This document shows positions 7,676 to 31,076 of a stretch of 31,478 nucleotides of DNA, in pieces. The notes beneath the pieces were generated by a model that worked only from the letters and a program-made list of their open reading frames with translations, was not told the origin of the DNA and ran no database searches. Position 1 is the stretch's first letter, and every line of letters starts with the position of its first letter. The position numbers and the translations under genes are program-made. This DNA is from a virus. The DNA is taken from positions 1-31,478 of the IMG/VR virus record IMGVR_UViG_3300021364_000104. One strand, given 5' to 3'.

Positions 7676-8650
7676 ATGGCACAACAAACTATAAATGTTG
7701 GAGTTAATCCAAACGATGGAGGCGGGGATACTTTAAGAGCAGCAATGCAAAAAGTTAACGCTAACTTCACAGAAACATACGGGAACGATTTCATTAATTC
7801 AGCTCAAATAGTAGAGAATGCAATTAATGAAAGAGAACTTAATATCGGTGCAGGAACATCAGGACAATCGTTAGCATCTGATGGAGCAGGAGGTTTTTAC
7901 TGGGGTAATGTTATCACAGGTGACGTTCCTGTCGGAGTCTTACAAACAAGACTTGGCGAAATAGGTGCTACTACAATTGGTGTTGATGCTGCTGCTGATA
8001 TAACTTTTAACGGGCAGATAACTGCTACAGGACAAAATGAAATTACATTTACTCACGCAACATTTGCGGGATTACCCGCAGCAGCGAGCAACGAGGGGCT
8101 AATTGCTTACGCGCAAGATACCGGTAAATTTTATTGGTCAGACGGTACCCAATGGGTAGCTGCGTTTGCATTAGCTTCAGACGTTAGAGATAATATAGAA
8201 TATATAGGTTATGATACATCTGATTTTATTAGATTTGTTAATAACACAAAAATGGACTTCTACGTTAATAACGTATACAGAATGCGTTTAGATGATGGAT
8301 TGGATTTAGATGGGGATATAAACGCAACAGGTGATGTTATAGCGTATTCTACAGTAACACTTTCGGATATAAATTTAAAGAAAGATGTTGAGACAATAAA
8401 AAATCCAATTGATAAAATAAATAAAATCAACGGTGTTACATATAAATGGAAGGATAGCGATAAAGAAGCGGCTGGTCTTATAGCCCAAGAAGTACAATCA
8501 ATCTTACCACAATCAGTTATAAAAAGAACTGATTTTCATGGAGAAGAACAGCTTGCTTTAGACTACAACGCTGTAGTAGGGCTACTTGTAGAAGCTGTTA
8601 AAGATTTAGATAGTAGGTTAAAAAATTGTAATTGTAATTGTAAAAAATAA
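7676..8650 (+). CDS. Tail fibre with C-terminal S74 intramolecular chaperone domain
   Basis: A 324-residue protein. The N-terminal INVG.NPNDGGGDTLRAA and NANFTETY segments are common at the start of phage fibre proteins. The middle is a short beta-rich shaft. From about residue 229 it has a peptidase S74 / endosialidase-type intramolecular chaperone: LSDINLKKDV (S230, D231, K235), then ITYKWK-like and AGLIAQEVQSILP motifs, and a final helical bundle with LDYNAVVGLLVEAVKDL. In this family the domain trimerises the fibre and then cuts itself off just before the conserved Ser, using a Ser-Lys arrangement. That predicts a mature fibre of about 229 residues and a released C-terminal part of about 95. 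The last residues are the odd NCNCNCKK, which could crosslink chains. Confidence 0.85.
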   Translation: MAQQTINVGVNPNDGGGDTLRAAMQKVNANFTETYGNDFINSAQIVENAINERELNIGAGTSGQSLASDGAGGFYWGNVITGDVPVGVLQTRLGEIGATTIGVDAAADITFNGQITATGQNEITFTHATFAGLPAAASNEGLIAYAQDTGKFYWSDGTQWVAAFALASDVRDNIEYIGYDTSDFIRFVNNTKMDFYVNNVYRMRLDDGLDLDGDINATGDVIAYSTVTLSDINLKKDVETIKNPIDKINKINGVTYKWKDSDKEAAGLIAQEVQSILPQSVIKRTDFHGEEQLALDYNAVVGLLVEAVKDLDSRLKNCNCNCKK

Positions 8651-10956: not shown

Positions 10957-11177
10957 TGAATTTAATTAGAAAAATAAGTATAGGCACGGATTATAAAGAT
11001 AATGCAATGCACTATGCTGTGGGGCAAGAAGTTTATGGTGGACACAAAATTTCTGATATATTAGAAGAAACAGAAAAATATTGTATTTATATTAAAAAAA
11101 ATAATGAAATATTACTTTGGAAATCTTTTAATAAAAATATGGGAATAAGTGTAGAATATAATTTAGATTATGAATAG
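10956..11177 (+). CDS. Small unknown protein, translationally coupled
   Basis: A 73-residue protein starting on the TAATG overlap with the preceding gene and ending inside the start of the next (8-base overlap). The run KDNAMHYAVGQEVYGG followed by beta strands (YCIYIKKNNEILLWKSF) suggests a small compact beta domain. Its tight coupling on both sides argues that it is real. Function unknown. Confidence 0.55.
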   Translation: MNLIRKISIGTDYKDNAMHYAVGQEVYGGHKISDILEETEKYCIYIKKNNEILLWKSFNKNMGISVEYNLDYE

Positions 11178-17887: not shown

Positions 17888-19273
17888 ATGGCAGTAATGA
17901 CTTTTTCGGCAGGTGCTAATTTAAACGCAGTACCAGCGCCGGTAAAACAAACATTAAGTTCTAACTACCTTTCTTTTACAGGTGGTTCTAACGACTGGAG
18001 TCAGCAATACTTACCAGAATTATACGAAGCAGAAGTTGAAAGATATGGAAATAGATCTATCGCTAGCTTCTTAAGAATGGTTGGTGCTGAAATGCCTATG
18101 ACTTCTGATCAAGTAGTTTGGTCTGAGCAAGGTAGACTTCATTTATCATACACTGGAGCTTTAGTAGCATCAACAGGTGTTATTACAATTTCTGGTGGAC
18201 ACTCAATTAGAGTTGGTCAAACAATCGTAGTATCTGACGGAACTACAACAGTTAAAGCATATGTTGACGCTGTTGATAACTCAGCAAATACTATTGATGC
18301 TAATAGATATGACAAAGCTCTATTTAGTACTGATTCTGATTTTTCAGATGGTAACGTTGATTTATTCGTATTTGGTTCTGAATTTGCAAAAGGAACTAAC
18401 GGTATGAACGAATCAGTAACTCCTTCTTTCCAAACTTTTACTAACCAGCCAATTATCATTAAAGATAAATTTGAAGTATCAGGTTCTGATGCATCTCAAA
18501 TTGGATGGGTTGAAGTAACAGGAGAGTCAGGTCAAAATGGTTACTTATGGTACTTAAAAGCAGAAGGTGATACAAGAACTAGATTTGAAGATTACCTTGA
18601 AATGACATTAGTAGAAGCTGAAACTGCAGCAGGAGGCTCAGGAGCAGCGGCTATTACAGGAATCAAAGGAACTGAAGGTTTATTCCAAGCTATTGAAGAT
18701 AGAGGTCACGTAACAAGTGGTGGTATCGACGGTGGTTCAGATTCAGACTTAGCAGACTTTGACGAAATACTTAAGAAATTAGATGCACAAGGTGCTATCG
18801 AAGAAAACATGCTATTTATCAACAGAGATACAGCATTAAAAATCGATGACATGCTTGCAGCACAAAATTCTTACGGAGCTGGTGGTACATCTTACGGTGT
18901 ATTCTCAAACAGCGAAGATATGGCACTTAACTTAGGTTTTTCTGGTTTCAGAAGAGGTTCTTATGACTTCTACAAAACTGACTGGAAATACTTAAATGAT
19001 GCTAGTACAAGAGGAAACATTACAGATGTAAGAGGTGTATTAGTTCCAGCAGGAACATCTACTGTATACGATCAAACATTAGGTAAAAACATCAAAAGAC
19101 CATTCCTTCACGTCAGATATAGAGCTTCTGAAGCTGATGACAGAAAGATGAAGTCTTGGACTACTGGTTCAGTTGGTGCAGCTACTTCAGATCTAGACGC
19201 AATGGAGGTACACTACTTATCTGAAAGATGTTTAGTTGTACAAGGTGCGAATAACTTTATGCTTATAAAGTAA
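17888..19273 (+). CDS. Major capsid protein
   Basis: A 461-residue protein placed after portal and scaffold. The N-terminal region (LPELYEAEVERYGNRSIASF, then LRMVGAEMPMTSDQVVWSEQ) resembles what I remember of crAss-like capsid proteins, and the length suits an HK97 fold. The central part (about 90-190) is beta-rich and may be an insertion domain. Codon use is unlike that of its neighbours: by hand count 13 of 18 Tyr codons are TAC, while nearby genes use mostly TAT; TTC, AAC and CTT are also frequent. With the A-rich leader and a terminator-like hairpin after it, this marks the most highly expressed gene here. Host GroEL with the upstream cochaperonin candidate may assist folding. Confidence 0.85.
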   Translation: MAVMTFSAGANLNAVPAPVKQTLSSNYLSFTGGSNDWSQQYLPELYEAEVERYGNRSIASFLRMVGAEMPMTSDQVVWSEQGRLHLSYTGALVASTGVITISGGHSIRVGQTIVVSDGTTTVKAYVDAVDNSANTIDANRYDKALFSTDSDFSDGNVDLFVFGSEFAKGTNGMNESVTPSFQTFTNQPIIIKDKFEVSGSDASQIGWVEVTGESGQNGYLWYLKAEGDTRTRFEDYLEMTLVEAETAAGGSGAAAITGIKGTEGLFQAIEDRGHVTSGGIDGGSDSDLADFDEILKKLDAQGAIEENMLFINRDTALKIDDMLAAQNSYGAGGTSYGVFSNSEDMALNLGFSGFRRGSYDFYKTDWKYLNDASTRGNITDVRGVLVPAGTSTVYDQTLGKNIKRPFLHVRYRASEADDRKMKSWTTGSVGAATSDLDAMEVHYLSERCLVVQGANNFMLIK

Positions 19274-20158: not shown

Positions 20159-20857
20159 ATGGTCAATATAAATACAGTATATCAAAAAGCACTCGCTATT
20201 ATTAATAAAGAAAATAGAGGTTATTTAACGCCGCAAGAATTTAATTTGTTTGCTAACCAAGCTCAACTTGAAATATTCGAGCAGTATTTTTTTGACTTAA
20301 ATCAATATAAAAGATTAGCTACAAATGATACAGAGTATGCTGATCTATACAAAATTACTGATGAAAAATTAAGTAAGTTTAAAAAACAATCCGCACTTGT
20401 TTATTCAACGGATTCATTTCAATTACCATCAGATTTGCATAAGTTAGGCACTTTAACTTATAATAACATTGAGCTAGAAAAAATTGATCAAAAAACTTTA
20501 AATAAATATACTAGCTCCCCTTTAACTAATCCAAGCACAAATAATCCGGTATATATACAGAGCATAGCTAATTCATCATTACAATGGAATGTTAAAGTAT
20601 ATCCATCTACAATAAATACTGGAGTAACCTGTACTTATATCAGAAAGCCTATTACTCCAATATGGGGATATACAGAAGTTGATGGCTCAGCTTTATATAA
20701 TAGTGGACAATCACAAAATTTTGAAATACACTCTTCAGAAGAAACAGGATTAGTTTATAAAATATTACTGTATGCTGGAATTAGTATTAAAGATACAAAT
20801 GTTTCACAAGCAGCAGACGCTAAGGAAAATAAAAAATTAACACAAGAAAAATCATAA
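20159..20857 (+). CDS. Head-tail connector / tail ring protein candidate 1
   Basis: A 232-residue protein. The N-terminal ~65 residues are helical (NTVYQKALAIINKENRGYLT, then PQEFNLFANQAQLEIFEQYF). A beta-rich middle (VYSTDSFQLPSDLHKLGTLTY, WNVKVYPSTINTGVTCTYIR) and a helical C-terminus follow. This helix-beta-helix layout, and the NRGYLTPQEFNLFANQAQ motif, are what I recall for ring or tubular proteins between portal and nozzle in crAss-like podoviruses. The gene order portal, capsid, ring, ring, nozzle supports it. The assignment is moderate. Confidence 0.55.
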   Translation: MVNINTVYQKALAIINKENRGYLTPQEFNLFANQAQLEIFEQYFFDLNQYKRLATNDTEYADLYKITDEKLSKFKKQSALVYSTDSFQLPSDLHKLGTLTYNNIELEKIDQKTLNKYTSSPLTNPSTNNPVYIQSIANSSLQWNVKVYPSTINTGVTCTYIRKPITPIWGYTEVDGSALYNSGQSQNFEIHSSEETGLVYKILLYAGISIKDTNVSQAADAKENKKLTQEKS

Positions 20858-20860
20858 TAA

Positions 20861-21754
20861 ATGGCATTGCTAACTGAAACTAATCAACAATATTACGAAG
20901 GTTCAAATTTAGGTAGTTATCAATTTATAACGTTAACAAATGTTATAAATAATTTTATGCTATCTTATACCGGCCCAGATAAAATAGTTGGTGATACAAA
21001 AAGAACAGAAGTGTTATTTCATGCTCAAAGAGCTTTGCAAGAATTAAGTTATGATACTTTAAAATCTGTAAAAACACAAGAAATAGAAGTTAGCCCCTCG
21101 TTATCTGTTCCTCTACCGCATGACTACGTAAATTATGTAAAGATTTCATGGGTAGACGAGAATGGTGTGGAACATAGAGTAATGCCTACAAGACAAACTA
21201 GCACGCCTACGGCTTTATTACAAGATAGTGATTTTAACTATATATTTGACAACAACGGTAACCTTGTATTAGCGGCGGCTTCTGAAACAGAACAAAAATA
21301 TCAAGCGGCTACAAGCGGGCAAGCGGTAACAACAGCTGATTTAACAGATATATTAGCTAAATCAGAAGATGAGTATAAAATACATTATGGAACGAGGTAT
21401 GGATTAAATCCTGAAACAACAAACAGAAATGGTTCATTTGTTATAAATGATAATAATGGCACAATTTCTTTTTCAGGTGATTTTAATGGTAGATTAATAA
21501 TTATAAAATATATTTCTGACGGATTGGCTACTGAAGCAGAAATGAAAGTGCATAAATTTGCGGAAGATGCTATTTATAAATTTATAGCACATTCAATAAT
21601 TTCTACAAAAAATAATATACCTGAATACCAAGTTAGAAGATACCAAAAAGATAAATCTGCAGCAATTAGAAAAGCAAAATTAAGATTAAGCAATTTAAAA
21701 ATAGAAGAACTTAATCAAATAATGAAAGGTAAGTCTAAGCAAATTAAACATTAA
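20861..21754 (+). CDS. Head-tail connector / tail ring protein candidate 2
   Basis: A 297-residue protein with a helical N-terminus (VLFHAQRALQELSYDTLKS), then SPSLSVPLPHDYVNYVKIS. The phrase 'VPLPHDYVNYVKIS' is typical of gp11/gp4-type connector proteins of short-tailed phages. A beta middle (NGSFVINDNNGTISFSGDF, RLIIIKYISDGL) follows, and a basic helical C-terminus (KDKSAAIRKAKLRLSNLKI). It is predicted to stack beneath the portal. It is three bases after the previous gene and four bases before the giant nozzle gene, consistent with one assembly unit. Confidence 0.65.
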   Translation: MALLTETNQQYYEGSNLGSYQFITLTNVINNFMLSYTGPDKIVGDTKRTEVLFHAQRALQELSYDTLKSVKTQEIEVSPSLSVPLPHDYVNYVKISWVDENGVEHRVMPTRQTSTPTALLQDSDFNYIFDNNGNLVLAAASETEQKYQAATSGQAVTTADLTDILAKSEDEYKIHYGTRYGLNPETTNRNGSFVINDNNGTISFSGDFNGRLIIIKYISDGLATEAEMKVHKFAEDAIYKFIAHSIISTKNNIPEYQVRRYQKDKSAAIRKAKLRLSNLKIEELNQIMKGKSKQIKH

Positions 21755-21758
21755 TTAA

Positions 21759-24700
21759 ATGCCAGAAATTAAAAAGACTTTCCTTCGTGGAAGAATGAAT
21801 AAAGACCTTGATGAAAGGTTAATTCCAGAGGGAGAATATACAGATGCTCAAAATATTCAAGTTTCATCTACAGATGAATCAGAAGCTGGTACAGTGCAAA
21901 ATATTAAAGGTACAACTAAAATATTTGACACAATAGCACAATTTAGCCTAGAATTAGGAGATTTTAATTGTGTAGGGGCTATACAAGACGATGAGCACGA
22001 TAAACTATACTGGTTTATAAAAGGAACTGGCACTAATACAAAACAAGCTATTATAGAATATGATTTAGCAAATAACATAGCTAAACCAATATTAATAGAT
22101 AATGCGGGAACTATTTTAGAATTTTTAGGCGATTCTAATGAAAAATATATACCTGGTATTAAAATATTAGATCAAATGATTATTTGGACAGATAATAATA
22201 CTGAGCCAAAAATTGTAGACTTACAAATATTTTATAATAAAACTACTTATACTCAGCCTGATTGGAGTACAACTACATCTACAACAAAAGAAGATATTTT
22301 AATTATTAAAAAGAAACCATCTTCAGCTCCAACTGTAAAAATAACTTCATATACGTCAGATACATCAAATTCAATATTTGAAGAAAAATTTATTAGATTT
22401 GCATATAGATGGAAATTTAGTAATGGGCAATATTCTGCATATTCTCCATTTACAGAAACTGTGTTTGACCCAACTATAGATCCCGTATTAAATCAAATAC
22501 CTTATAACAAAGACGAAGGGTATAATGAAAGACAGAAAAATAATATTGAAAAAATAAAATTAGAAGGTTTTGAAGTGCCTAATAATGTTGAGCAGATTGA
22601 AGTATTATATAAAGAGTCAAATAATACAAATGTTTATTTATATAAAACAATTAAAAATCCAACTCAATCAGAAGTTGTAACTATTGAGAATAAAGAAGAA
22701 AGTGTATTTTCCGTATTACCTGAAAATCAATTACTTAGACAATATGATAATGTTCCTGTAAAAGCTAAGGCTGTTGAAATAGTAGCAAATAGATTAATGT
22801 TTGGTAATTATGTTGAAGGTATTGATATAAACGATTATACACCAAATTTAACAATAACTACTGTTAATAGAGCTAAATTACCTGATTTTGACAACGGAAC
22901 CGTAAATAATACAGATTTAAGAACCATAAAATCTGGTAGAAAATATCAATTTGGGGTTGTATTTGAAGATGAATATGGTAGACAAACACCTGTTATAACA
23001 AATGAAACAGCTGTAAAAAATATTAATTACGGAGAAAATACATTGCCACAAGCTTTTGAAATAACATTAAATAATGCGCCGGCAGCTGAGAGAATAAAAA
23101 AATATAAATACTTTATTAAAGAATCTTCGGATCAATATTATAATTTTATTATTGAGCATGTATATGATGATAACGATAATACAGAGCATGCGTGGTTATT
23201 GGTTCCAAGTTATGAAATAAATAAAGTTAATGAAGAAGATACAATAGTATTAAAAAAGGCTGCAAATGGAGGTGCTATTGCGGCACCAACAAAATACAAG
23301 GTATTAGATATATCAGACTCTACCCCAAATGGGATTACCTCATCAGCTTCCCATGCTGGTAAGTTTTTTATAAAAATTAAAAAAGATTCCAATATAACAT
23401 CAGAATTATTATCACAAGGCGGTATTACCAATAGCGCTTTAATAGCTGAAAATTCATCTAATTGGGAAGGCCCTATATATACAGTTCCAAGTAACGCGTT
23501 ATTTTTAGGGCAATATTCAGTACAAGACGGAAACCAAACTTATGAAAGAACTAGATTTTATTATAAAGATGGTAAAATATATGAGGTTGTTGATATAATA
23601 GGGTATCCCGTTGATAATGATTTTCAATCAGGAGTTTTTGCAACTTACAATACAAATCCAACATGTAGCAGTCTAACAGATGGTAATTGGGCTGATTTAA
23701 GTATAACAGGAACTGGTGACCCGTCGGGTGATGTAGATGCTGTTTTTGTACAAGCAATTTCTGGAAATCCTGATTATCCAGGAGCTTTTTATATTTGTTT
23801 ATCAAATACTCCGACAACAAGTGGTACAGGATTTGGCCCCGCTGTATTTGAAGTTGAACCAAATGATGGTATATTAGATATATATTACGAAACTGAAGAC
23901 GCATATAATATAACAGATTTAACCGCAAAAACATTAAGATGGTATAATGCGTATCAATTTACAGATGGTGTTGAATCAGATAGAATAAAAGATGATTTTA
24001 ATGAAGTAACATTAGGTAAAGGGGTGAGAGTATCTACGCAAACAGATGCTAAATTCAAAGAATATACACGAGAAAATGGTATTATATCTTCAGATATTTA
24101 TAATAGCAAAAACAGTGTAAATAATTTAAACCAGTTTAATACTGGTCTACCTATTACAAAAGATATTAGCCCTGAATATGGTGGAATACAAAGATTACAT
24201 ATAAGGTCGTTGCAAGGAAGTGATTTAATAGTGTTCGCTGAAAATAGAGTATTAAGATTACCTGCTAATAAAGATTTATTATATAATGCTGATGGCACAA
24301 CAAATTTAATATCTACAAATCAAATATTAGGAACAGCGTTTCCTTATGCGGGAGATTTTGGTATCTCCGATGACCCTATGTCTTTTGCTGAAAACGGTAG
24401 TAGAATATATTTTGTTGATAGAGCAAAAAATGCTATTTTAAGATTAAGCCCAGACGGTTTAACTGTCATATCAAGTAAAGGTATGAAAACCTTTTTTAGA
24501 GACAAGTTAAACAATCAAGATTTACCAATAGTTGGTGTTTTTGATGAATATTCAGACCAATATATACTTTCATTTGATAATTCAGATCCAACAATTGCTG
24601 AAAGTGTTACATTTAAAGAAAACGTAGATGGGTGGGTTTCAAGATTAACTTATGTTGTAAAACCAGCAGTATCAATAAATGGCAAATTATATAGTTTTAA

Positions 24701-27700
24701 TTACGGAAATTTATATGAGCATTATCATCCATCAAGTACAAGAAATGTATTTCATGAAAAACTTTTTACTAATTCAGGTGTGCAATTAGTATTTAACCAA
24801 ACGCCTTCTGCTATTAAAAATTTTAAAACTATATCTTATGAAGGCAGCCAAGCTAAAAACAGTAATAAAAAAGGGTGGAGTGTTGGCTCAATAATAACAG
24901 ACCAGCAACAAGGTAAAATAGTAGAATTTAAAGAAAAAGAAGGTAAGTGGTTTGCAAATATTTCTGGTGTAACAAAAGATGTTGGAATAGAAGGCACCCC
25001 TGATATAGATGTTCAGGAATTTGCAATTCAAGGTATTGGAAACTTAGATAATTTAGGTGAGGTTCCAACAGAATTTGAGTGTAGCACAGCTGTGTATAGC
25101 ATGACAACCGGTAATGTGGGTGACCCCTCAATATCTGTAGCCACTGTTTCTTTAGGTGTAATTAAAAGTATTACTCCTGCAACACTTCAAGAAGGAGAGC
25201 AAGAATATACAGCTACTATAACAGCACCTAGCACTGGGTATACAAATTCAGGTGATGATATTACTTGTAAATTTACTTTAACCCTTGCTCCTCAAGAAAA
25301 TTTAACTTGTACAACTAATGGTTTTGTATTAAACATTGATGATGGATTAGAAGGTGACGCTGTAACTGGCTCAGCCTCTATAAACGGAGCGGCTTTAACT
25401 ATACAAGCTATAAATCCTGGAGTATATCAACCGGGCAGTGGATTAACTTATACAGCTACAATATTAGTTCCAGCAGGATACGCAAATCAAGGCGCAACAA
25501 TAGATTGTGATGATACCGCTACTGCCGCAACAGGTGCGTATGATTGCAACACTTTCTCGGATTGGGTAACAGCTAGTTATGATGTGTCTACTGGTAATAT
25601 AACTGTATTGCCAAAAAGACCATCTACGACTGTGCATAGTTACACACCAACAGGCTCAGCACCTAATCAAGGAAATGTCCCCATAACATACACGTTTAGT
25701 GACAGCGGAGTAGCTTGGTCAAATTCAGGGACCCAAATACAATGTATAGACGGTATAACAGTGGATACAACTGTAACATATTCTGCAACTATATCGGGTC
25801 CTAGTACATTCCAAGTAAATAGCGACACTTCTTTAAGCGTAATAGTAGAAGGAGACGGCGTTTATAATCAAAATATAGATGTTACATCACAATTAAATGA
25901 CCCTGTTGATTTTGTATGGTCAGGCCCAGCTAGTATGTCTGGAATAACAGGTACTTCAACAGGTTTATTTACAGAACTTGCAGCAGGTGAAGTTTATACA
26001 TATTATGTAACTATTGACACAACAAGCTTAACAGGATCTTCCAGTTCTATTGTAGCTTCAAAAAATATAGAATGGGTTGATGGTCCAACCGTGCAACTAT
26101 CAGCTAGTACTAGCATCGCTTTTACAGGAGATAATGTTGAATTAACTGCTAATGGGCAAAATATATCAAACGCTTCATTTGAATTTTCAGAAAGTTATAA
26201 TGATGGTGCTACTTGGTCGGTTGTTCAAGCATTTAGCTCAGATAATACTTTTACAGCAACAAAGGCTTGTGGAACAAATCCAGGTGTTGTTAGATACAAA
26301 GTAAGAATGGACGGTACTAATTCTATAACAAATACTCCGCTAGCTAGCCCTGTAGAAAGCGATCAAACAAATAATAAAATTAATGTAGTTTGGAATGATG
26401 CACCGGAATGGAATTTATATTTTGAAAGTTCTCAAGCTATATTACATTCTATTTGTGATACTGATATAAATACATTGCAGCAAGTTGCATTATTTGGTAA
26501 TACATTAACAGGAGCACCAAATGACCCCTCATTTACTACTAAATTATACCAAAATTGTGAAAGAACAATTGATGCAGGAAGCGGTGGAACATATTTACAC
26601 ATAGCTCCAAATGGGACTAAAAGATATGCTTATTTTAATGGTGCTAATATTTCGGCGCAACCAAATAGCGCTACTGGGTGGTTATCATGTAGTAATATGT
26701 ATTTAACAATTATAGATGGCGCACAAACTATTGATATAACTAATCAAACTATAGAAAAATGTGCTAATATAGATTTAGTGCAAATTACGGCTAATATTGA
26801 AGGATTTGAGTATGATGAAATTTTATGGTCACCTACTGGAAGTACTTCTTTATCAACTACAGCATCATCAGAAACTGTACAATCAATAACTTATATATGT
26901 ACTGCAACAAATAACACCACTAATCAAACTTTAACAGCAAGTGCAACTATTGATTTTGTAAATTGTAGCACATTGGTAGCGGCAAGAAAATGTGCGAGTA
27001 CAACGCAGCCATTAAGATATTTACGAGTAGATGGTATAGCTAGCATGGCAAATGCAGGCGATGTTGTAGAATTTACAGCTATAAATAATAGTACTTTACC
27101 TGAAGGTGATGGCTGTTATGAACTTGTGCAAAAAACAGGAGTTACAGAATCAGATAATATAACAGTTTCTGTAACCGATGTAGTAGGATTTTCGGATTGT
27201 GATTCGTGTAATTGTGACCCTACGGGGACTTCAGAATTTACTAATATATCTTTTTCAGATGCTATAAAATATATTTATGCAGACGGAGGAGGCTATAATA
27301 CAATAACATTAAGCGCGAGTGTAACAAATGCAATTTGTCTTTCAACCGCTAGTTACCAATGGTATGCAGGGTTGTCTACAGATAAAACAAGCCATATATC
27401 AATAAAAACAACTAGTTCTAATTCAACTACAGTAACATATCAAGAATTAACAAGCGCGGGATTATCAATAACACCAGGTTCAACACTAGTGCATTATCAT
27501 TGTAAATTAAGTTACACAATAGGAAACGGTAGTTCTCAATCTGCTGAATCAGATAGTACACAAGGTATGTCGTGGATAAACTTACCTGAATTTACGTTGT
27601 CGTATTTAAATTCAGGAACAGCTAGTAATCCTGATGACTCTATATGTTCCAGTACTAGTGGCTCAACTTTATATCCTGTTTTTGGAAATGAAGGACAAGA

Positions 27701-29819
27701 TCCAGGCCAAGATAATCTTTTACTTGCTACTAAATTTTATTCTAATGCTGAAAGAACACAAACGCCAGCAAATGGAACATGGAAATCTAACTATGGCGGG
27801 AATGCTACAAATATTTATACATACTTATTAAATGGTGTGCCCCAAACCCCCACGAATGCGGTACAAGGTACTAATTGGAGGGCTTGTGCGGCTAATTTTA
27901 GTTTAACATCAAATAGAGGAGATAGCGGCTATACGCTATGTAATAATTTAACAGCTAATTTATTTGCTAATTATGATCCTAATGTATTAACATTGAATAC
28001 ATCTACATATGAGTGGAGAGTTAATAATGTAGTGCAGACAAGCTCTAATGGTCAAGCTAATTTCACAGCATCAAACCCAGGCGGTGCAGGGCTTGTTATA
28101 TATGGTGTGTCAGTGCAAGATACAAATGGAATCCCATATGAAGACCAATTTCAAATACAATGGCAAGACTGTAGTGTTAAGGTAAGGGTAAGAAAATGTG
28201 GTAATTCAACCGGTTATGCTGTTGCTACAGTTTTAGGAACCTCAACAATTGCAAATGGAGTTTTTGAACTAACTGCTGAGCCAAATCAACAATTACCAGA
28301 GGGCAATGGTTGTTATACAATATTACAAACAACGACTGAATCGTCTAATGCAGAAGTTACGGCTATAGGGCCAAATGGAGATTCAGGCCAACCTTATGCA
28401 AGTTGTAGCGTTTCCGCGTGTAATCCTGTAGATGAATTTTATTTATTATCAAGATGTCTTGATGGAGCACAATACAGAACGTCACAAACTATAGAAAACC
28501 TTAGTTATTATGTAAATCAAATTTTAGAATATAATACTCAATCATATACGGTAATAGGTACAACTACTAATACAGGTATAACATCAATTTCAAGTTTTAC
28601 AACTACCAGCTATACTAGTTGTCCAGCATATTATGGATTACAAAAATGTTCTGACCAATCTACTAATCATAGATCAGGTGTAGATGTAGAGCAATTTACA
28701 TTAAATGTAGGGGATAGAGTAAGCGATATACTTACTGGGGAATTTTATGTTGTTCAAAATAACACAGCAACATCAGGTAATTTAGCTACTGTGGTTAGCA
28801 CAGGTTTAACTGGATGTCCAGAACCTACACAAAATTATTATCAAATTAGAGAATGTTCTACAGGTACAGATTATAGAACGCAAAGAACAACAGACGCTGT
28901 AGTTCTTTATGTTGGAAATATAGTATATAATCAAACAGGTGATGTATTTTTTACAGTTATATCAAATACAGCGCAGGTTGGTGATTTTCCAGAGTACTCA
29001 ACACAAGTTTACCAGTCTCCTTACAGTAGTTGCCCGCTGGGTAGTTATAATTGTAATACTTATAATGATTGGGTAACAGCATCGTATAATTCTAGTACAG
29101 GCAATATAACACTTACGCCAGTTAGAAATACAACAACTGTTACAACTTATTCTCCAACAAATACCGCTTCAGGACAAGGAGTAATAACTGTGACTTATAG
29201 TTTTCAAGATTCAGATGTTAACTGGAGTAATACAGATGAAATTATTTCAGGTTGTACAATAACTGTTGATACAGGTACAGCTACTGTATATAGAGCTACA
29301 TTTACAGATTGTGATGGACTTGGTTCAACTATAAATGTTACTAGTAGCCAACAAATAGATACAGACCAAGTTCTTTCAGATGGAGTTACTTGTTATCAAT
29401 TTGCAAATAATAATGGTGGTAGTCCAGAACAAGATATAACAACATATACTTCTTACAACGAACCTGATTTAGATTCTACAGGAAATTGTGGAGTTTGTGA
29501 CGCTGTAGTAAATCCAACTACAACTACAACTACGACTACTACTCTAGCTCCTTGTATAGCGGTTGATGTATATAAAACAAGATTCAATCCAGCTACAAAC
29601 CCAGATGCAATGAGTATTTTATGTGGTAATGGATTTGCAACAACACAATATTTTAACGCAAGCTCAGTAGGTGCTGCAACTATATATTATTCAGATTTTA
29701 CCTGTACTACATATAAGAGCACAGCTGAATACATTTCTGACGCTAATAATACATCACAATATTATTATTGGAATGGTAATTCATTAACATTAATTGGGAA
29801 TACTGGGCCGTGTCAATAA
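21759..29819 (+). CDS. Giant tail nozzle (muzzle/stabilization) protein fused to repeat-rich adhesin
   Basis: A 2686-residue protein. Residues 1 to about 1080 look like the nozzle/'stabilization' protein of crAss-like podoviruses: FLRGRMNKDLDERLIPEGEY at 7-26 and the propeller-like stretch IYFVDRAKNAILRLSPDGL in about 875-900. The usual protein of this kind is, to my memory, much shorter. From about 1108 it becomes a Cys-bearing beta repeat protein. A tandem pair of ~76-residue domains (1108-1254) is followed by module X (1261-1346), Ig-like domains (to about 1445), two ~398-residue units (about 1445-1825 and 1840-2220), three ~66-residue Cys-bounded repeats (2228-2427), a second module X (2430-2515), a Thr9 hinge (2587-2595) and a 91-residue tip. 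Role inferred: DNA exit nozzle carrying a host-binding extension. Confidence 0.75.
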   Translation: MPEIKKTFLRGRMNKDLDERLIPEGEYTDAQNIQVSSTDESEAGTVQNIKGTTKIFDTIAQFSLELGDFNCVGAIQDDEHDKLYWFIKGTGTNTKQAIIEYDLANNIAKPILIDNAGTILEFLGDSNEKYIPGIKILDQMIIWTDNNTEPKIVDLQIFYNKTTYTQPDWSTTTSTTKEDILIIKKKPSSAPTVKITSYTSDTSNSIFEEKFIRFAYRWKFSNGQYSAYSPFTETVFDPTIDPVLNQIPYNKDEGYNERQKNNIEKIKLEGFEVPNNVEQIEVLYKESNNTNVYLYKTIKNPTQSEVVTIENKEESVFSVLPENQLLRQYDNVPVKAKAVEIVANRLMFGNYVEGIDINDYTPNLTITTVNRAKLPDFDNGTVNNTDLRTIKSGRKYQFGVVFEDEYGRQTPVITNETAVKNINYGENTLPQAFEITLNNAPAAERIKKYKYFIKESSDQYYNFIIEHVYDDNDNTEHAWLLVPSYEINKVNEEDTIVLKKAANGGAIAAPTKYKVLDISDSTPNGITSSASHAGKFFIKIKKDSNITSELLSQGGITNSALIAENSSNWEGPIYTVPSNALFLGQYSVQDGNQTYERTRFYYKDGKIYEVVDIIGYPVDNDFQSGVFATYNTNPTCSSLTDGNWADLSITGTGDPSGDVDAVFVQAISGNPDYPGAFYICLSNTPTTSGTGFGPAVFEVEPNDGILDIYYETEDAYNITDLTAKTLRWYNAYQFTDGVESDRIKDDFNEVTLGKGVRVSTQTDAKFKEYTRENGIISSDIYNSKNSVNNLNQFNTGLPITKDISPEYGGIQRLHIRSLQGSDLIVFAENRVLRLPANKDLLYNADGTTNLISTNQILGTAFPYAGDFGISDDPMSFAENGSRIYFVDRAKNAILRLSPDGLTVISSKGMKTFFRDKLNNQDLPIVGVFDEYSDQYILSFDNSDPTIAESVTFKENVDGWVSRLTYVVKPAVSINGKLYSFNYGNLYEHYHPSSTRNVFHEKLFTNSGVQLVFNQTPSAIKNFKTISYEGSQAKNSNKKGWSVGSIITDQQQGKIVEFKEKEGKWFANISGVTKDVGIEGTPDIDVQEFAIQGIGNLDNLGEVPTEFECSTAVYSMTTGNVGDPSISVATVSLGVIKSITPATLQEGEQEYTATITAPSTGYTNSGDDITCKFTLTLAPQENLTCTTNGFVLNIDDGLEGDAVTGSASINGAALTIQAINPGVYQPGSGLTYTATILVPAGYANQGATIDCDDTATAATGAYDCNTFSDWVTASYDVSTGNITVLPKRPSTTVHSYTPTGSAPNQGNVPITYTFSDSGVAWSNSGTQIQCIDGITVDTTVTYSATISGPSTFQVNSDTSLSVIVEGDGVYNQNIDVTSQLNDPVDFVWSGPASMSGITGTSTGLFTELAAGEVYTYYVTIDTTSLTGSSSSIVASKNIEWVDGPTVQLSASTSIAFTGDNVELTANGQNISNASFEFSESYNDGATWSVVQAFSSDNTFTATKACGTNPGVVRYKVRMDGTNSITNTPLASPVESDQTNNKINVVWNDAPEWNLYFESSQAILHSICDTDINTLQQVALFGNTLTGAPNDPSFTTKLYQNCERTIDAGSGGTYLHIAPNGTKRYAYFNGANISAQPNSATGWLSCSNMYLTIIDGAQTIDITNQTIEKCANIDLVQITANIEGFEYDEILWSPTGSTSLSTTASSETVQSITYICTATNNTTNQTLTASATIDFVNCSTLVAARKCASTTQPLRYLRVDGIASMANAGDVVEFTAINNSTLPEGDGCYELVQKTGVTESDNITVSVTDVVGFSDCDSCNCDPTGTSEFTNISFSDAIKYIYADGGGYNTITLSASVTNAICLSTASYQWYAGLSTDKTSHISIKTTSSNSTTVTYQELTSAGLSITPGSTLVHYHCKLSYTIGNGSSQSAESDSTQGMSWINLPEFTLSYLNSGTASNPDDSICSSTSGSTLYPVFGNEGQDPGQDNLLLATKFYSNAERTQTPANGTWKSNYGGNATNIYTYLLNGVPQTPTNAVQGTNWRACAANFSLTSNRGDSGYTLCNNLTANLFANYDPNVLTLNTSTYEWRVNNVVQTSSNGQANFTASNPGGAGLVIYGVSVQDTNGIPYEDQFQIQWQDCSVKVRVRKCGNSTGYAVATVLGTSTIANGVFELTAEPNQQLPEGNGCYTILQTTTESSNAEVTAIGPNGDSGQPYASCSVSACNPVDEFYLLSRCLDGAQYRTSQTIENLSYYVNQILEYNTQSYTVIGTTTNTGITSISSFTTTSYTSCPAYYGLQKCSDQSTNHRSGVDVEQFTLNVGDRVSDILTGEFYVVQNNTATSGNLATVVSTGLTGCPEPTQNYYQIRECSTGTDYRTQRTTDAVVLYVGNIVYNQTGDVFFTVISNTAQVGDFPEYSTQVYQSPYSSCPLGSYNCNTYNDWVTASYNSSTGNITLTPVRNTTTVTTYSPTNTASGQGVITVTYSFQDSDVNWSNTDEIISGCTITVDTGTATVYRATFTDCDGLGSTINVTSSQQIDTDQVLSDGVTCYQFANNNGGSPEQDITTYTSYNEPDLDSTGNCGVCDAVVNPTTTTTTTTTLAPCIAVDVYKTRFNPATNPDAMSILCGNGFATTQYFNASSVGAATIYYSDFTCTTYKSTAEYISDANNTSQYYYWNGNSLTLIGNTGPCQ
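25080..25508 (+). repeat. Tandem ~76-residue beta domains in giant protein
   Basis: Two similar domains lie at about residues 1108-1174 and 1184-1254. Each has a Cys near the start (C1108, C1184), a YTATI strand in the second half, a Gly-Tyr-x-Asn-x-Gly turn and a Cys in an IxC motif near the end (C1170, C1250). The paired Cys may form a disulfide. Confidence 0.65.
25539..25797 (+). repeat. Module X, first copy
   Basis: Residues 1261-1346 (YDCNTFSDWVTASY, then STGNITVLPKR ... ITYTFSDSGVAWSN) closely match residues 2430-2515 later in the protein. Shared features are the CNT..DWVTASY..STGNIT opening, the VAWSN/VNWSN strand and the ITVDT ending. Confidence 0.75.
26085..28420 (+). repeat. Tandem duplication of ~398-residue unit in giant protein
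   Basis: Two large units of similar design follow one another. The boundaries are approximate. Matching landmarks are SICDTD (C1566) with SICSST (C1963), TKLYQNCERT with TKFYSNAERT, and LPEGDGCYELVQ (C1786) with LPEGNGCYTILQ (C2185). Landmark spacing is 397 and 399 residues. Sequences have diverged considerably, so the duplication is old or under diversifying pressure. Confidence 0.7.
28440..29039 (+). repeat. Three tandem ~66-residue Cys-bounded repeats
   Basis: Copies begin at residues 2228 (YLLSRCLDGAQYRT), 2291 (YYGLQKCSDQSTNHRS) and 2360 (YYQIRECSTGTDYRTQ). Each has an early Cys, a central hydrophobic strand with Asn/Gly turn (YVNQIL, NVGDRV, YVGNIV) and ends in a Cys-Pro pair. The regular Cys pair per repeat suggests a disulfide-stapled beta domain. 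Confidence 0.75.
29046..29303 (+). repeat. Module X, second copy
   Basis: Residues 2430-2515 (YNCNTYNDWVTASY, then SSTGNITLTPVR ... VTYSFQDSDVNWSN) repeat the module at 1261-1346. The two copies bracket the large internal duplications, which implies dispersed rather than tandem copying of this module. Confidence 0.75.
29517..29543 (+). repeat. ACN triplet run encoding Thr9 hinge
   Basis: Nine Thr codons in a row (residues 2587-2595, mixed ACT/ACA/ACG) separate the C-terminal 91-residue domain from the rest of the giant protein. A similar run of seven Thr codons at 7156-7176 lies in the propeller adhesin. Confidence 0.9.
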
Positions 29820-29833
29820 TTAAATAAAATTTT

Positions 29834-30739
29834 ATGATATATATATGCGCTCAGCCAGCTATATTATATTATGCTTGGCAGATAGATACAATGCTTTATA
29901 ATTTTAAAGATACTGGGATAGACTTAAATAATGTACATATTGTTTGTTCATTTAAAGCTCCTATTGATCCATATTTTAGAAAATTAGAAAAAAAATATTC
30001 AGCTAAATTTTTTTATTATCAAGATACAAGGTTTGAACCTGATTATATATCTAGTATACGACCACATATATTGGCTAAACATTTTGAAAGTAATAAATAT
30101 TTAGAAACCACTCCTATATTTTATCATGACTGTGATATTGTTTTAGCTAGGCCGTTAGAATTAAAAAATTATATAAGCAATAATATAAATTATTTATCTG
30201 ATACAATTTCATATATAGGGCATGATTATATAAAAAGCAAAGGGGAAGAAGTATTAAATTTAATGTGTAAAGTAATGAATATATGCTCTTGCAAAGTTAG
30301 AGCTAATCAACACAATTCAGGTGGAGCACAGTATTTATTAAAAAACATACCAGCTGATTTTTGGAAAGCGGTAGAAGATGATAGTGAAAACTTATTTTAT
30401 GCTTTAACAGAATATAATAAAGTTAAAAAGCAACAAGACCCAGAATACCACGAATTACAAATATGGTGCGCTGATATGTGGGCTTTATTATGGAATTTAT
30501 GGAAAATAAATAGGCCTACAGCAATAATACCAGAAATGGATTTTGTATGGCCAGTTGAAAAACGGGATTCAATACAAGGTAAATCAATAATTCATAATGC
30601 TGGAGTTTTAAATAATAAAAATAGATTATTTTATAAATCTGACTATAGATCTAAACTTCCAGATTTAAATTTAGATATTGATGAAACAAAGGTGTCTTCG
30701 TTCTATTATAGCTTTGTAAAAAAAGCATTATTAACGTAA
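29834..30739 (+). CDS. Glycosyltransferase-like protein (GT-A fold, GT8-like)
   Basis: A 301-residue soluble protein. YHDCDIVLARPL carries a DxD motif (D99-C100-D101), the metal- and sugar-nucleotide-binding motif of GT-A transferases. NSGGAQYLL (161-169) sits where many GT-A enzymes bind the acceptor or donor. HNAG (254-257) resembles the HxxG metal-binding motif of family 8. The N-terminus (IYICAQPAILYYAWQIDTML) could be the first Rossmann-like strand and helix. There is no signal peptide or membrane segment. It lies 14 bases after the giant adhesin gene and before virion genes, so it may glycosylate a virion protein or a host surface sugar. Substrate and acceptor cannot be told from sequence. 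Confidence 0.65.
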   Translation: MIYICAQPAILYYAWQIDTMLYNFKDTGIDLNNVHIVCSFKAPIDPYFRKLEKKYSAKFFYYQDTRFEPDYISSIRPHILAKHFESNKYLETTPIFYHDCDIVLARPLELKNYISNNINYLSDTISYIGHDYIKSKGEEVLNLMCKVMNICSCKVRANQHNSGGAQYLLKNIPADFWKAVEDDSENLFYALTEYNKVKKQQDPEYHELQIWCADMWALLWNLWKINRPTAIIPEMDFVWPVEKRDSIQGKSIIHNAGVLNNKNRLFYKSDYRSKLPDLNLDIDETKVSSFYYSFVKKALLT

Positions 30740-30749
30740 TAATAACAAT

Positions 30750-31076
30750 ATGAGTCAAATAACACTTAATATAACAGCACATAATAATACGTCTTTACAG
30801 ATAGGTGATACATTGTATTATTTGGGTACAGATAGTAATAAAAAAAGAATTGGCCCGTTGTTATCAAAAACAACATCTACAATAACATGTGATACCGATG
30901 CTAATAGTGATTTAACACAATTAAGTGCATCAAGCTATTTATTTTTTGGCAAAGATCATGTTATCAATACTTCCGGTATAATTGGATATTACGCTGAAGT
31001 TAATTTTTCAAACAATTCTGAACAAGAGGCTGAGTTATTTGCAGTAAATTCAGAAATATTTATAAGTAGTAATTAA
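30750..31076 (+). CDS. Small beta-rich protein of unknown function
   Basis: A 108-residue protein rich in Thr, Ser and Asn with predicted beta strands (ITLNITAHNN, SLQIGDTLYYLG, TITCDTDAN, GYYAEVNFSN). The 'LQxGDTLYY' turn occurs in small structural proteins of marine phages, in my memory. It has no membrane or signal segment. It is 10 bases after the transferase gene and one base before the next ATG, so it is most likely a minor virion protein. It could also be the acceptor of the transferase, but nothing directly shows that. Confidence 0.5.
   Translation: MSQITLNITAHNNTSLQIGDTLYYLGTDSNKKRIGPLLSKTTSTITCDTDANSDLTQLSASSYLFFGKDHVINTSGIIGYYAEVNFSNNSEQEAELFAVNSEIFISSN

Follow-up and report, generated by a model that had tools for sequence, protein, structure and literature searches.

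Why would a virus carry a gene for a predicted glycosyltransferase directly behind the gene for a giant virion protein, and what would that enzyme glycosylate? In the window (the whole 31,478-nucleotide stretch of viral DNA that was analyzed), a complete ORF of 301 codons occupies positions 29834 to 30739 of the plus strand and starts 14 nucleotides past the stop codon of an ORF for a protein of 2,686 residues (positions 21759 to 29819). The first-pass annotation had placed the transferase gene at exactly these positions, had described the larger protein as an adhesin, and had proposed that the enzyme decorates it with sugars.

Sequence family and fold of the enzyme

A match to phrog_4417 (E = 8e-61) spans the whole enzyme and places it in a family that carries only the label "unknown function" in PHROGs. 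No match was obtained in Pfam at E values up to 1 or in NCBIfam at E values up to 0.1, the Pfam Glyco_transf_8 (PF01501)/CAZy GT8 profile did not match the sequence, and no PDB sequence was matched with either the single sequence or a profile; these searches gave no named sequence family. Relatives are nevertheless numerous; a tblastn search of 50,697 phage records found them in 74 records, and 294 contig stretches encode one. The DxD and HxxG motifs had been read correctly in the first-pass annotation and correspond to D99-C-D101, within Y97-H-D-C-D101 (codons at positions 30122 to 30136, plus strand), and to H254-N-A-G257 near the C terminus (positions 30593 to 30604, plus strand); both sets of coordinates were derived by hand. 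In an alignment of 46 sequences (the window enzyme and 45 relatives from viral contigs), D99, D101, and the whole of H254-N-A-G257 are invariant, and D-x-D and H-x-x-G are both kept in 120 of 120 distinct family members collected. The former is the putative metal/nucleotide-sugar motif, and the HxxG motif of GT8 enzymes binds metal.

The AlphaFold2 model of the enzyme (mean pLDDT = 96.3, pTM = 0.92) takes the shape of a single compact GT-A domain over the entire length, in which the DxD motif is placed after the strand formed by residues 95 to 98, at the end of the nucleotide-binding half; a DxD region outside a GT-A fold, which would have refuted the first-pass proposal, is thereby contradicted. 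A Foldseek search of the PDB gave 231 matches at E ≤ 0.001, and the best 50 of the 231 are all glycosyltransferases; the top matches, which mostly act on proteins or glycans, include UGGT (E = 5e-8), the blood-group enzymes GTA/GTB, COLGALT1, LARGE1, and the Skp1 galactosyltransferase. In VIA-align comparisons covering residues 1 to 301, glycogenin ranked first (Z = 15.6), followed by LgtC (Z = 14.6) and GlyE (Z = 13.9), and WbbM is also close. Judged from the model, the enzyme is a GT-A fold glycosyltransferase that is nearest to glycogenin and LgtC of GT8. It shares with the GT8 enzymes glycogenin, LgtC, and GlyE the whole-chain GT-A fold, the DxD motif, and the C-terminal HxxG motif, whereas the sequence identity is approximately 6 to 12% and there is no Pfam, NCBIfam, or PDB sequence match even with a profile. 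Although the fold is GT8-like, the GT8 sequence profile does not match, and the enzyme is best called a separate family.

Two functions other than virion glycosylation have to be weighed against this fold and the genomic setting. LgtC-type GT-A enzymes act on surface glycans and phage serotype-conversion glycosyltransferases exist, which would suit an enzyme that alters the host surface for receptor masking or superinfection exclusion and lies in a structural operon incidentally. We regard this as very unlikely, given that the gene is part of late structural operons, where it keeps close register with poly-threonine genes (described below), in phages whose hosts have very different surfaces, and that the modeled enzyme is one compact GT-A domain from end to end. 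A DNA-modifying transferase that guards the genome from restriction has next to no probability in our assessment, even though phage glycosyltransferases are often of the DNA-modifying type, according to PMC12619734; no base-modification genes were recognized beside the enzyme gene in its relatives, the gene resides in virion operons, its presence toggles with protein sequence features, and the fold neighbors act on proteins and glycans.

The upstream muzzle protein and its threonine-rich extension

As first annotated, the enzyme gene lies among virion genes: PHROGs structural proteins are encoded upstream at positions 17888 to 19273, 20159 to 20857, and 20861 to 21754, and are followed by the gene for the 2,686-residue protein. 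Elsewhere in the window, a tail-fiber protein (positions 7676 to 8650) carries a C-terminal Peptidase_S74 endosialidase-type chaperone domain (E = 1e-15), and an ORF at positions 11170 to 11754 matches a GroES-like co-chaperonin family (phrog_13932, E = 1e-11).

The 2,686-residue protein (positions 21759 to 29819, plus strand) matches phrog_14478 from residue 4 onward (E = 4e-124) and Pfam crAss_MUZ_C (PF25729) at residues 995 to 1069 (E = 2e-6, above the curated cut-off). By these matches, it is a crAss-like muzzle (residues 1 to approximately 1080) with a C-terminal extension of approximately 1,600 residues rich in threonine, serine, and cysteine, which is the proposed substrate, and it is not the stand-alone adhesin that had been suggested. 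The extension (residues 1081 to 2686; positions 24999 to 29816, plus strand) is poor in lysine and repetitive by eye; it contains 14.8% Thr, 10.7% Ser, 8.2% Asn, and 1.4% Lys, with Cys present, in comparison with 8.4% Thr, 7.2% Ser, 8.6% Asn, and 6.9% Lys in residues 1 to 1080. The richness in Ser, Thr, and Asn noted previously is therefore real but, as the composition by region indicates, lies mainly within this extension. The "poly-Thr hinges" of the first-pass annotation reduce to one long run, a T9 linker at residues 2587 to 2595 (positions 29517 to 29543, plus strand; hand-checked); the plural is overstated for the window phage, because the remaining runs are TTTVTT at residues 2458 to 2463 and short TTT runs. 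The T9 run is the most likely glycosylation site in the window phage, which is crAss-like. Past this linker is a Cys-containing C-terminal domain of approximately 90 residues (positions 29544 to 29816, plus strand) that by eye resembles the C termini of the upstream proteins in loci L001, L002, L005, L013-L043, L049, L066, and L076.

On the other side of the enzyme gene, a 108-residue piece (positions 30750 to 31076, plus strand) is homologous to the C-terminal half of phrog_18548, and the end of the muzzle matches the N-terminal half, with the enzyme gene separating the two. In crAss-like phages without the enzyme, the 108-residue piece is fused to the muzzle (L325, L326, and L333), adjoins it, or is separated from it by mostly uncharacterized genes, and the junction is thus a variable insertion site.

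Association of the enzyme with poly-threonine in related phages

The genes upstream of the relatives are mutually unrelated and encode muzzles, capsid proteins, tail-tube proteins, small decoration or Ig-like proteins, and others; the feature common to these neighbors is threonine. When environmental loci were fetched by the enzyme alone, in samples limited to 80 loci per search, and scored for six or more consecutive Thr or for TTTxPxTTT, the gene immediately upstream (-1) satisfied this in 53 of 77 loci, compared with 0/75 for the next gene downstream (+1), 1/58 at -4, and 1/50 at -5. Related sequences inflate some of the counts reported here, and clustering and within-family tests reduce this inflation without removing it; with the enzymes clustered at 70% identity, the values are 17/28 at -1 and 0/27 at +1. 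The association also holds in the reverse direction. Among loci fetched by the DNA pattern (ACN)10 alone, the enzyme is encoded next after 10 of 63 ORFs with at least nine consecutive Thr, and after 1 of 877 other ORFs (Fisher p = 9e-12). The other 53 of the 63 poly-Thr ORFs are not followed by the enzyme, and poly-Thr is thus not dependent on it. The broader proposition that poly-Thr proteins in general precede glycosyltransferases was found to be weak; with the enzyme family excluded, a Pfam glycosyltransferase is encoded in 3 of 42 downstream genes versus 1 of 50 controls, and that sole control gene itself sits in a cassette of the enzyme/poly-Thr kind.

No poly-Thr was found in reach of the enzyme in approximately 10 environmental relatives (L017, L037, L053, L055, L072, L073, L075, L077, L079, and L323). 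Seven relatives were found on chromosomal contigs (genome_contigs). Two of them, in MAG contigs, have Thr-rich upstream ORFs (L210 and L211); the other five, in Chitinophaga, Pedobacter, Niabella, and Dysgonomonas, lack a Thr run immediately upstream and appear to be non-phage relatives. Loci L212, L213, L215, and L216 are the ones from Chitinophaga, Pedobacter, and Niabella.

In the cultured-phage records examined, Thr-rich stretches are present on a virion or adjacent protein in 19 of 19. The Thr tail is on the tail-tube (major tail) protein (MTP) in phages 1706, CHPC971, phiFL1A, and bIL285 and on the capsid protein (MCP) in 4995_1, CHPC836, and R3.3; the C terminus is VTTTTTTTTTTHHD in the tail-tube protein of Lactococcus phage 1706 and APTTTTTTQATTTTTSHA in the capsid protein of CHPC836. 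Small decoration or Ig-domain proteins carry the stretches in PLE3, Bacchae, Iacchus, 521B, ENFP1, and SscS-F1, and a linker carries one in MA9V-3. Half of the 125-residue protein of Lactobacillus phage PLE3 consists of VKPTTTTTTT, and 521B and ENFP1 have TTVKPTTVAP repeats without long Thr runs.

Three phages in which the annotated upstream protein lacks a Thr tail (bIL285, 9183, and nattely) were considered as exceptions, and the tails were found elsewhere. The bIL285 enzyme gene comes after that for the capsid protein, and it is the tail-tube protein (orf50), encoded five genes further on, that has the Thr tail. In Enterococcus phage 9183 (L087:4740-4889) and in nattely (L224:4180-4374), poly-Thr, e.g., KRVEPTTTTSTTKATTTTTSTSTSTTTTTLAEG, is encoded in a second frame that overlaps the capsid gene at its 3' end. 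The capsid stop codon in 9183 is preceded by C CCA AAA G, a heptamer of the standard type for -1 slippage, and, judged from the sequence, a programmed frameshift in these two phages is likely to add the Thr tail to part of the capsid subunits. The MTP has corresponding overlapping-frame extensions in Staphylococcus phage RQ1 (L227:4080-4431), PT1-4 (L221:3420-3707), and TPWB06 (L223:4180-4423). Their tail-tube genes end with Thr-Pro, the final codons reading CCC TAA, and a +1 shift at that point would read into a long poly-Thr/KP region; the two frames carry separate protein annotations.

Coupled gain and loss within gene families

Within single gene families, the tail and the enzyme come and go together. 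Using the capsid family of CHPC836 as bait and excluding contigs that end too soon, a Thr tail was observed in 5 of 5 loci with the enzyme and in 3 of 68 without it (p = 4e-6), and the three tailed capsid genes without the enzyme have short T5-T7 runs. In these loci, the tail-tube protein is tailed too where its gene is within range. On a tree of 28 close MCPs, the presence of the enzyme requires five changes, two of which are forced by well-supported branches. Similarly, the MTP family of phiFL1A has a Thr tail in 3/3 loci with the enzyme and 0/11 without, and phages of this type have tails on both the MCP and the MTP together with a single enzyme gene.

For the crAss-like phages, the enzyme is present in 7 of 51 muzzle loci with complete 3' flanks. 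The idea that the enzyme belongs with the muzzle was consequently rejected, as 44 of the 51 loci lack it. Read locus by locus, a poly-Thr ORF touches the enzyme gene in six of the seven loci with the enzyme, and this ORF is the muzzle itself in L334, L336, and L383 and a separate ORF in L327, L370, and L382. Any poly-Thr ORF at all is found in 1 of the 44 loci without the enzyme, and that contig ends inside the ORF. The enzyme follows poly-threonine and not the muzzle. The linkage that had been expected in relatives holds in a sharper form, not with the "adhesin" as such but with Thr-rich stretches on whichever virion protein adjoins the enzyme.

These observations also bear on two readings in which the poly-Thr run is not the acceptor. 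The enzyme might instead modify Ser, Thr, or Asn of the β-rich domains or of another virion protein, with poly-Thr as a mere spacer, as the Thr/Ser/Asn-rich composition throughout the extension and the several relatives without nearby poly-Thr would allow. This is unlikely, because in 1706, CHPC971, phiFL1A, 4995_1, CHPC836, and R3.3 the capsid or tail-tube protein is ordinary in everything but a short Thr tail and the presence of that tail tracks the presence of the enzyme. Alternatively, the extension and the enzyme gene could be a co-traveling mobile cassette without any enzyme-substrate relation, and the crAss-like enzyme does lie at the variable muzzle/108-residue site, which also receives unrelated genes. 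Hitchhiking, however, does not predict that the partner differs by phage group (MCP, MTP, decoration protein, or muzzle), that the tail in bIL285 lies at a distance of five genes from the enzyme, or that both the MCP and the MTP are tailed beside one enzyme in the phiFL1A type, and we consider a bare cassette hardly credible. We therefore return to O-glycosylation of the threonine-rich stretches, to which we assign a probability of roughly 0.8: a metal-dependent GT-A enzyme would transfer sugar from a host nucleotide sugar to the Thr-rich linkers or tails of the adjacent virion protein. The glycosylation of the neighbor proposed at first is supported, with the target better put as these stretches, and the "sugar-coated tail protein" is a well-supported interpretation.

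We infer that the enzyme is active, that threonine is its acceptor, that particular Thr residues are modified, and that the phage benefits. By analogy with GT8, the donor would be a UDP-hexose, and the hexose of this host sugar would be transferred, either ahead of assembly or while it proceeds, to threonine hydroxyl groups in the linker or tail. The acceptor in the window phage would be the extension at the C terminus of the muzzle, above all its T9 linker; in relatives, it would be a small decoration protein or the tail at the C terminus of the capsid or tail-tube protein. The sugars may stiffen the linker, make it protease-proof, mask the particle, or bind lectins of the host or the environment.

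Several aquatic relatives have, next after the enzyme gene, a gene for a GT2, GT29 (sialyltransferase), or GT32 enzyme, a radical-SAM/SPASM protein, a 2OG-Fe(II) oxygenase, or a methyltransferase-like protein. Sialyl-motif proteins are encoded beside the enzyme in L002 (8900-9394), L006, L007, L031, L032, and L070 (Pfam Glyco_transf_29, best E = 1e-15 among the two that were scanned) and, by this match, represent a sialyltransferase-type gene in bacterial viruses. The radical-SAM/SPASM protein, directly after the enzyme in L003 (8906-9952), L004, L005, and L014, perhaps modifies the same virion protein in a further way. A second unnamed family of approximately 290 residues (SFLEHDVxYPEGYF), in which EHDV and INHG are invariant, is often encoded directly after the enzyme (L057:8912-9787 and approximately 20 further loci); its AlphaFold model has a GT-A fold (pLDDT = 90) with a small N-terminal β domain and is nearest to CHSY3, Bogt6a, and GalNAc-T2. 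The extra downstream glycosyltransferase genes suggest that the first sugar is extended in some aquatic relatives. The window phage has no extra glycosyltransferase gene in the remainder of the record past the enzyme.

Significance and comparison with known systems

The location of the enzyme gene, in unrelated phages, beside genes for virion proteins with poly-Thr runs, with which it is gained and lost, suggests that many phages sugar their own particles. On balance, we lean toward the broader view that virion glycosylation is a general strategy of tailed phages of Bacteroidota and Bacillota, in which phrog_4417 enzymes act on portable poly-Thr "sugar handles" placed on capsid, tail-tube, decoration, or muzzle proteins, some of them by programmed frameshifting, and accessory GT2, GT29, and GT32 enzymes and the second GT-A family build longer glycans in aquatic phages. 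A large family without a function thereby gains a concrete predicted role and an acceptor that can be read from sequence alone, and the prevalence of sugar-coated phages becomes directly testable in easily grown Lactococcus phages. The findings are relevant to the recognition of phages by antibodies and to phage persistence, to the way in which external appendages are carried by crAss-like phages, and to the idea of poly-Thr as a portable protein tag. A search of the open-access literature for poly-threonine or threonine-rich sequences together with phage glycosylation or tails found nothing relevant.

The streptococcal serine-rich-repeat adhesin cluster (PsrP) includes the GT8-type GlyE, and its glycosyltransferase genes lie beside that of a long Ser/Thr-rich surface protein. 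The window resembles this cluster in having a glycosyltransferase gene next to a gene for a long Ser/Thr-rich protein, and GlyE is a structural neighbor of the enzyme (Z = 13.9). The PsrP cluster differs in that it serves a bacterial surface protein with Ser-rich repeats and employs GtfA/GtfB as the initiating enzyme.

Among phages, Freeman and colleagues are said to have seen little sign of virion glycosylation outside mycobacteriophages. In mycobacteriophages, phage-encoded glycosyltransferases place sugars at the C termini of capsid and tail-tube proteins (Freeman et al. 2023, doi 10.1016/j.chom.2023.05.028, as presented in PMC12619734 and PMC11256854). The likeness to the present system consists of a phage-encoded glycosyltransferase together with capsid or tail proteins that have a C-terminal tail, here the putative acceptor. 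No Mycobacterium phage matched the enzyme by tblastn at E values up to 1 in a search of the 50,697 whole phage records. The putative enzymes of Maravista are described in PMC11256854 as lying near the 3' end of the genome, whereas the window enzyme adjoins a virion gene. The phages described here further differ from the mycobacteriophages in that they infect Bacteroidota and Bacillota, appear to use poly-Thr runs as acceptors, and include the crAss-like muzzle as an additional type of partner.
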